DNA of 64,000 nucleotides from NCBI GenBank assembly GCA_947502975.1, contig CANNBV010000001.1:1-64000 (forward strand), in the 5' to 3' direction. The stretch is from an uncultured Flavobacteriaceae bacterium (GTDB lineage: Bacteria; Bacteroidota; Bacteroidia; Flavobacteriales; Flavobacteriaceae). This document shows positions 13,828 through 45,490 of this stretch, piece by piece (position 1 is the stretch's first letter; each line of letters opens with the position of its first letter). A program made the position numbers and the translations under genes. Under the pieces are notes generated by a model. That model saw only the letters and a list, made by a program, of their open reading frames with translations. It did no database searches and was not told where the DNA came from.

Positions 13828-13913
13828 GGGCGCTACCCCGCTTAAGAGCGTGGTCGGGCTATCCGTTACAAGTCCTCGCTGCGCTGTGGGCTTTCCACTA
13901 CTATCCCTAGCGC
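13828..13913 (+). repeat. Family-1 dispersed intergenic repeat, copy A (ends GCGCTA/TAGCGC)
   Basis: The element runs from GGGCGCTACCCC to ATCCCTAGCGC with an internal GGTCGGGCTATCC block. It is far more GC-rich than its surroundings. Three other copies lie in this window (27421-27540 minus, 31028-31158, 45356-45443). The ends are complementary. In this copy both ends differ from the others at the paired position (GCGCTA/TAGCGC against GCGTTA/TAACGC). No credible coding capacity is seen. Confidence 0.75.
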
Positions 13914-27420: not shown

Positions 27421-27540
27421 GCGTTAAGGATTGAACGGCATATTTGAAATCCCCGACGAAGGAGGGATTGAGTAGTGAAAGCCTGACCCGAGCGAGCTTG
27501 TTTCTTGAAATGGTTGTATGTAACATCGAGGGTAACGCCC
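27421..27540 (-). repeat. Family-1 dispersed intergenic repeat, copy B
   Basis: On the minus strand the element reads GGGCGTTACCC ... GGGTCAGGCTTTC ... TCAATCCTTAACGC, matching copies A, C and D at both ends and in the middle block. It lies between the convergent small lipoprotein and EnvC-like genes. A family-2 repeat (27544-27588) abuts it directly. Confidence 0.75.
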
Positions 27541-31027: not shown

Positions 31028-31158
31028 GGGCGTTACCCTCCTTAGGTCGGGTCGGGCTTTCCACTATATCTTTTTTATGTGTTCTCGATACATTTTGTTC
31101 ATGCTTCACAAAACACTCGAACAGACATAAAAAAGGATGCCGCTGCAATCCCTAACGC
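31028..31158 (+). repeat. Family-1 dispersed intergenic repeat, copy C, carrying a family-2 repeat inside
   Basis: It runs from GGGCGTTACCC (31028-31038) through GGTCGGGCTTTCC to CTGCAATCCCTAACGC (31143-31158). The interior contains an additional stem, ATCTTTTTTATGT against ACATAAAAAAGGAT. This encloses a family-2 repeat (31082-31128) very like 27544-27588, so the element is composite. Confidence 0.75.
31082..31128. repeat. Family-2 repeat, copy 2, nested in family-1 copy C
   Basis: TTCTCGATACATT, TTCATGCTTC, AAAACACTCGAA and CAGACAT follow in the same order as in the copy at 27544-27588, with a few insertions and substitutions. Confidence 0.55.
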
Positions 31159-31212
31159 AGTCCTTGCTATATTCAAAAATAGCTATTCATTTTAAAAAAT
31201 AGCAACTTTGGT

Positions 31213-45074: not shown

Positions 45075-45355
45075 TACCTCTTGGTTTGGTGTAATAGATA
45101 ACTACAAACTCTCACAAATAGTATATAACACCACTTCTAATTTGAAATTACCTTAATAAAACGTTCTTTTTCCCTTTCTATTTCAGAATAAAATGAAACC
45201 GTAGCTAAACCTATGCTTAAATTTTCTTCTTCATATAAAGAAAAAAATCATCATTTTATTTTACAATAATTTCAAACAAGAACTGGTATAAGTGGGTAAA
45301 AATAAACATCTTTTTCGATTAAGCTATAAAATCACTGCATTTTTGAAGTGTTTTT
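45075..45355. other. AT-rich intergenic region upstream of sprE
   Basis: Probably contains the sprE promoter, but no full TAnnTTTG box was found (TACTATTTG near 45121 has one extra base). No ORF or repeat is seen before the family-1 element at 45356. Confidence 0.4.
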
Positions 45356-45443
45356 GGGCGTTACCCTAAAGGGTCGGGCTTTCCGTTAATAGTTTTGGCT
45401 CGATGCGCGCCTCGCCAAAAGCTGCCACTGCAATCCCTAACGC
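45356..45443 (+). repeat. Family-1 dispersed intergenic repeat, copy D
   Basis: GGGCGTTACCC ... GGGTCGGGCTTTCC ... CTGCAATCCCTAACGC. The interior holds AGTTTTGGC and GCCAAAAGCT, which pair around a GC-rich loop. It separates sprE from the unknown membrane protein gene. Confidence 0.75.
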
Positions 45444-45490
45444 GGGATACTTTGCTGGCTTTTTAGCTAATACAATAGGATTAGTACATG

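Follow-up and report, generated by a model that had tools for sequence, protein, structure and literature searches.

Several families of repeats and sites offer a comparison with the element described here. The ERIC, BOX and Correia-type repeats are dispersed intergenic imperfect palindromes of other lineages, some of them modular or with inserted segments, and an in-place change of arm class is not known to us from any of them. With REP and REPIN sequences the element has in common that it is short, palindromic, intergenic, found in both orientations and present in high copy number, and other palindromes lie inside some of its arms; it differs in being a three-way junction with a covarying frame and in occurring in genomes where Y1_Tnp was not found (see below). 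The attC sites of integrons, which we take to combine one folded strand, conserved unpaired bases and variable end structures, resemble it in all three respects, but the fold of the present element is branched, with two arms, and an integron integrase over the cut-off was found in none of four genomes searched.

The nearest catalogued relative is Flavo-1 RNA (Rfam RF01705, given the Rfam type 'Gene; sRNA'), which was included in 2010 among the candidate structured RNAs of Bacteroidetes (PMC2864571). No function is given for it in the passages of PMC2864571, PMC9723704 and PMC9029176 that name it. For F. psychrophilum, a passage of PMC9723704 records that several 5' transcribed regions coincide with Flavo-1 matches, that the matches lie indistinctly in sense and antisense and that many are outside transcribed regions.

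An earlier note, made from the letters of a 64-kb stretch of flavobacterial DNA (the whole stretch analysed, here called the window), had proposed four dispersed copies of an intergenic element, and all four were found to be real (Table 1). As the note had it, each lies between ORFs (of at least 80 aa) and each is richer in GC than its surroundings (62, 48, 45 and 57% in the order of the table, vs 33% for the window). The shared ends and block that it described are present, with the corrections that the block reads GGTCGGGCTATCC in copy 1 and GGTCAGGCTTTCA in copy 2 and that the right end of copy 2 reads ATCCTTAACGC. The paired change of both ends of copy 1 to GCGCTA/TAGCGC was confirmed, and two other paired changes had been missed, TT/AA to TA/TA in copy 1 and GGG/CCC to AGG/CCT in the H2 arm of copy 2.

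Table 1. Positions of the element copies, their parts and neighbouring features in the window.
Feature	Position	Strand	Remarks
Copy 1	13828-13913	+	
Copy 1, closing stem	13828-13835 with 13908-13913	+	GGGCGCTA with TAGCGC
Copy 1, H1	13836-13853	+	
Copy 1, linker	13854-13855	+	TC
Copy 1, H2	13856-13907	+	AAGTCC class
Copy 2	27421-27540	-	
Copy 2, closing stem	27533-27540 with 27421-27426	-	
Copy 2, H1	27487-27532	-	long loop
Copy 2, linker	27485-27486	-	
Copy 2, H2	27427-27484	-	CACTACTC class
Copy 3	31028-31158	+	
Copy 3, closing stem	31028-31035 with 31153-31158	+	
Copy 3, H1	31036-31051	+	
Copy 3, linker	31052-31053	+	
Copy 3, H2	31054-31152	+	TATATC class
RF01705 match	31046-31172	-	55 bits, at copy 3
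Repeat left of copy 4	45124-45289		about 165 bp
Copy 4	45356-45443	+	
Copy 4, closing stem	45356-45363 with 45438-45443	+	
Copy 4, H1	45364-45373	+	
Copy 4, linker	45374-45375	+	
Copy 4, H2	45376-45437	+	TTTTGG class
Copy 4, right flank	45444-45458	+	GGGatactTTGCTGG, example of the TNTCTGCYAA-like motif

Two features beside copy 4 deserve mention in their own right. The TNTCTGCYAA-like motif of its right flank, replaced in some copies by CCGTCTA, was seen by eye approximately 7-10 nt past TAACGC in many copies. Of 9 relatives, 8 lack the repeat on its left at the orthologous place and G001 has part of it; the repeat occurs 16 times among the matches listed in G004, a genome with only 1 strict copy of the element; it is a separate small mobile element.

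A search of the 4.5-Mb genome with an exact-end pattern returned 39 copies, and the reversed control returned none. The earlier note had suggested building a covariance model from the copies, and a model built from 32 of them, the four of the window included, gave at least 143 genome matches at E <=0.01, possibly a lower bound as 150 of 1064 first-look candidates were scored; at least 125 matches reached 45 bits, and the genome thus holds well over a hundred copies. Matches of the model in the window were exactly the four copies; since all of them belonged to its training set, their scores cannot serve as independent proof. When only the 11-mer ends were searched for, allowing up to 2 mismatches, the evidence was weak (7 matches vs 3.2 expected and 18 vs 7.4). 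Strict copy number ranged from 0 to 53 across 99 relatives and from 1 to 48 within the genus, indicating that the family spreads or is lost easily. Four copies (L004, L007, L010 and L017) continue rightward into a second repeat of approximately 200 bp which ends near ATTATACACGGTGTTGT. This repeat was considered as a candidate extension of the element, and an end pattern made for it has 9 occurrences in the genome. Five IMG/VR contigs (L258-L262) hold the left half of the element.

On the strand on which the element was first read (the reading strand), the order of parts is GG-GCGTTA, H1 (CCC...GGG), TC and H2 (GGG-C-TT ... AA-T-CCC), followed by TAACGC. The layout is that of a three-way junction, in which a closing stem GCGTTA/TAACGC is followed by arm H1, a TC linker and arm H2 with a conserved C/T mismatch; the mismatch is present in 94 of 94 aligned copies. 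In this set of 94 copies (91 distinct) 97.7% of frame cells were paired, 29 of 1,272 were unpaired and none showed a one-sided change to another standard pair. Helix 1, the terminal inverted repeats GCGTTA/TAACGC, had 97.8% of its cells paired, and helix 3, the H2 base (GGG.TT / AA.CCC with the mismatch, on the minus strand of the copy as first read), had 98.9% over the 94 copies. Double changes were observed in 9 of the 14 frame pairs and amounted to 32 cells vs 2.5 in shuffles, none of 500 reaching 32, and when the pairing was slid by 1-3 columns at most 3 double-change cells were obtained. They include the transversions TA to AT and GC to CG, for which there is no wobble route. The alignment of 94 copies was fitted to the covariance model, which favours its own structure; a first MAFFT alignment of 32 copies, which was not model-fitted, gave a result of the same sign (3 pairs, 6 cells, 0/500 shuffles). 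The larger set is the better test because the copies of the first alignment came from a pattern that fixes most end letters. The earlier note had argued from complementary termini to selection for pairing and had named ends that vary independently across the genome as the outcome that would speak against it; the ends covary across the 94 copies, and its proposal is both real and stronger than first thought. At the level of sequence, these alignments demonstrate three-way-junction pairing with covariation.

We then considered which strand folds. Among 129 distinct copies from the host and related genomes, departures on the reading strand comprised 18 A.C and 4 G.T cells, which are not all independent as some mismatch cells share a site and the A.C cells of two genomes are at one orthologous site (c2); the same copies also had 43 double changes, and of 47 further mismatches 40 fell at junction pairs 6 and 9. 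All four G.T cells came from two degenerate rows (L109 and L111), and when rows under 45 bits were dropped 13 A.C and no G.T remained. Since A.C on the reading strand is G.T, or G.U, on its complement, the complementary strand is favoured as the folded one. By computed energies the complement was the more stable strand in 79 of 91 copies with RNA parameters and in 88 of 91 with DNA parameters. Arm tips of the form GA-(G.GNA.C or C.GNA.G)-GA were found on the complement in 49 of the host's 91 copies (shuffle mean 0.63) and on the reading strand in 0/91. GNA triloops closed by C-G are very stable DNA mini-hairpins. Against a sole folded strand, the H2 classes AAGTCC and TATATC were seen by eye to retain T.G on the reading strand. 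Taken together the sequences show that folding of a single strand is preferred, the complement of the copy as first read and the strand of the Rfam model too, with a signal that is not uniform; for copy 1 the folded strand would be the minus strand.

The earlier note knew no name for the family, which does overlap a catalogued one. RF01705, with a gathering threshold of 42 bits, gave one match over the cut-off in the window, at copy 3, while copy 1 reached 35.5 bits on the minus strand and fell below it. Of 20 further loci 4 passed, and these are exactly those with the TATATC class of H2; the other 16 failed. The element and Flavo-1 agree in strand and in an H2 arm as in the TATATC class, CCGCTATATC...GGATGCCGCT with the mismatch. 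They differ in that the Rfam model pairs H2, while the closing stem and H1 are, in its two printed alignments, either unpaired or beyond the model. Among the relatives RF01705 had matches in 53 of 99 genomes, 47 of them over the cut-off. Of the 30 best loci, 6 near contig ends were left out, and the 24 that were readable comprised, by eye, 20 with another frame (AGC-TATTT-CCYG...CRGG-GCT), 2 with the frame of the present element and 2 others, so that the same arm occurs in more than one frame. The full element is a larger relative of the Flavo-1 motif, and what the catalogued model takes in is a single arm from a single arm class.

To follow single copies between species, nine sites, copy 1 not among them, were compared through their flanking DNA in genomes of the same genus, and site c3 (copy 3) in named genomes as well. 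The element was present in at least one other genome at 7 of the 9 sites. At site b it was found in none of the relatives read, at site c it was absent from the sole relative compared (G003), and G007 was the only genome alignable on either side of site d. For c3 a protein scan yielded 80 loci, 4 of which had a model match, including those of Hyunsoonleella flava (counted once with G007) and Mariniflexile fucanivorans; within the genus 6 of 11 relatives carry the element there, and G002, G004, G005, G008 and G011 carry other DNA. At site f G003 has two opposed copies, which were treated as two groups, giving a total of 8 orthologous groups with 37 elements. A single orientation is kept inside each of the groups other than those of site f.

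The arms are another matter. At least two H2 classes, which were assigned from hand-made motifs, occur in 6 of the 8 groups while the frame stays. With the truncated G001 copy at site f excluded, the H2 class was common to 27 of 90 genome pairs vs 16.3 by permutation (P 0.006), genome pairs and copies not being independent, and when the degenerate c4 rows (G002 and G006) were also dropped 26 of 83 pairs shared a class. This excess, in a set where only 27 of 90 pairs agree, indicates that the arms have for the most part changed but retain a trace of ancestry. Ten genomes compared at c3 have the H2 classes d b e f e f b d f d, and in G001, G006 and an Algibacter MAG three H2 classes accompany what is by eye a single H1 type. 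Within the host genome the class of H1 was independent of that of H2 (permutation P 0.56), and an identical 58-nt H2 occurs with 5 different H1. Several copies, in G008, G009 and other genomes, hold nested palindromes such as TCCCGATAGCTATCGGGA or CTTCGACAAGCTCAG within their arms, and other palindromes are nested in the copies at c4 of G006 and G008. Sequence comparison thus demonstrates that sites are kept between species of the genus, that arm classes differ at the same site and that H1 and H2 classes combine at random. The change of arms could alternatively reflect the loss of one of two neighbouring copies, for which the two opposed copies of G003 at site f may be cited, or a fresh insertion at the same spot. 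No pair of filled and empty sites with a clear target-site duplication was seen by eye at the nine sites.

We tentatively regard the family as a non-coding dispersed folding DNA element, selected for its structure, whose arms are exchanged in place, most likely by way of folded single-stranded DNA; this is the reading to which we give the most weight, though we would not call it established. A fixed frame, made of the closing stem, the H1 base, the TC linker and the H2 base with its C/T mismatch, would carry two interchangeable hairpin arms. Selection would act on the single strand in its folded form, most likely as DNA that replication, repair or transfer exposes, and not on a transcript made at each locus. 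An arm would be replaced where it stands by a copy taken from another element by way of the short conserved segments of the frame, for which ectopic conversion, template switching and a structure-reading recombinase are candidate routes. The element may persist as a selfish or near-neutral cassette in intergenic places that tolerate it. A bolder form of the idea, which we consider unlikely as it stands, is a system of folded single-stranded DNA docking frames, previously undescribed in Flavobacteriaceae, in which a dedicated structure-reading enzyme or template switching at replication swaps the hairpin arms between loci, the Flavo-1 'RNA' being one type of arm.

The main rival is a functional structured RNA, either cis-regulatory or a small RNA, made off the minus strand of each copy. 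Strong covariation, the tolerance of G.U on that strand and the RF01705 match on the same strand would all be expected of it, as would the coincidence of several 5' transcribed regions with Flavo-1 matches in the F. psychrophilum passage (PMC9723704), although the same passage has these matches in either sense and often outside transcribed regions. A -7-like TAnnTTTG by itself was found before the start of the folded strand, within the right flank, in 11 of 94 copies vs 4.9 in shuffles (largest 13). However, the two-part TTG/TAnnTTTG promoter precedes the folded strand in only 2 of 94 (shuffles 0.4), and a promoter of its own for a free RNA was rejected on this count. Relative to their neighbours, on gene calls that are approximate, 29 of the 94 copies lie in tandem in the sense direction and 28 in antisense, with 22 between convergent and 15 between divergent genes, and an RNA made from one strand of the locus fits poorly because the tandem orientation is even. 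Orientation by replichore was also considered and rejected, as no long orientation runs were found along three large contigs (C1, C2 and C3; 81 copies). The change of arm class at the same site also speaks against a functional RNA, which we judge possible but somewhat improbable.

A second rival is a two-way transcription boundary between genes, a terminator or an mRNA-stabilising hairpin kept for its structure. Genes upstream in the same sense end within 11 bp of the left end of the element in 23 of 51 cases, and the 22 copies between convergent genes and the keeping of sites while arm sequence changes would also suit such a role. A run of at least four T within 12 nt past the element was nevertheless found in 0 of 94 copies on the reading strand (8 of 94 on its complement), for which a terminator reading was rejected; the 15 copies between divergent genes and a strict copy number of 1-48 in one genus, which makes the element look dispensable, count against a boundary as well, and we consider it distinctly improbable. 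An intrinsic terminator upstream of the element, as a general target, was not convincing either, as a T-run with an inverted repeat was found in 15 of 94 left flanks vs 7.3 when shuffled (largest 16).

The earlier note had compared the element to REP or MITE sequences, and the dispersal and intergenic position that this implied were borne out while the link to a REP-associated transposase was not. Mobilisation by such a Y1 transposase (RAYT) would suit high-copy intergenic palindromic repeats, and strict copy number over the 99 genomes does rise weakly with Y1_Tnp count (rho 0.26, P 0.009); Y1_Tnp is present in 15 of 23 genomes with copies vs 29 of 76 without (Fisher P 0.03). Inside the genus, however, the correlation is not significant and of opposite sign (rho -0.42, P 0.17, n=12), and Y1_Tnp is missing at E 0.001 from 8 of the 23 genomes with copies, among them G003, which has 25 strict copies. 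Looking for the transposase in the host, as the note had advised, brought up two Y1_Tnp genes, and their 3.2-kb loci contained no match to the element model even at E 10. Other palindromes, GCTAGTTTGTAACTAG-like and CACGAAAGGATTCGTG, were seen by eye at these loci (L031, 1020-1400 and 2000-2130; L032, 650-830 and 1200-1930) and are likely the REPs of these genes themselves. A RAYT-driven REP was rejected on the loci without the element and the copy-bearing genomes without Y1_Tnp; RAYT transposases seem not to be required, and we think their involvement very unlikely.

At site b the element lies at one end of a 1,364-bp insertion (L198 4124-5487) with a 311-aa ORF inside, transglutaminase-like by eye. 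Four relatives were aligned across both flanks: three of them (G001, G006 and G009) lack the insertion and have a junction of a few bases, and the fourth, G003, has other DNA. An attC-like site, recombined as a folded single strand by an integron-type or other tyrosine recombinase carrying gene cassettes, would suit this insertion, and the folding of one strand, the conserved mismatch and the variable ends of the arms resemble those of attC sites (PMC2727003), but it is the least probable reading of all, since no integrase over the TIGR02249 cut-off was found in any of the four copy-rich genomes searched, the host included (for which an attC with IntI was rejected), only one such insertion occurs among the 9 sites and the stretches that were read showed no array of cassettes. 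Weaker tyrosine-recombinase matches were present in all four of those genomes. An autonomous partner was not seen in the searches for Y1_Tnp and integron integrase.

To return to a folding DNA element with exchangeable arms, the genomic behaviour of the catalogued Flavo-1 motif is closer to that of a repeat than to that of an RNA gene. If this is right, annotation tools that rely on Rfam would call such arms small RNA genes across many genomes of flavobacteria. The process by which hairpins are swapped among dispersed loci would then still have to be found, and the more than 100 natural variants within one genome would provide material for testing structure-selected DNA or RNA.
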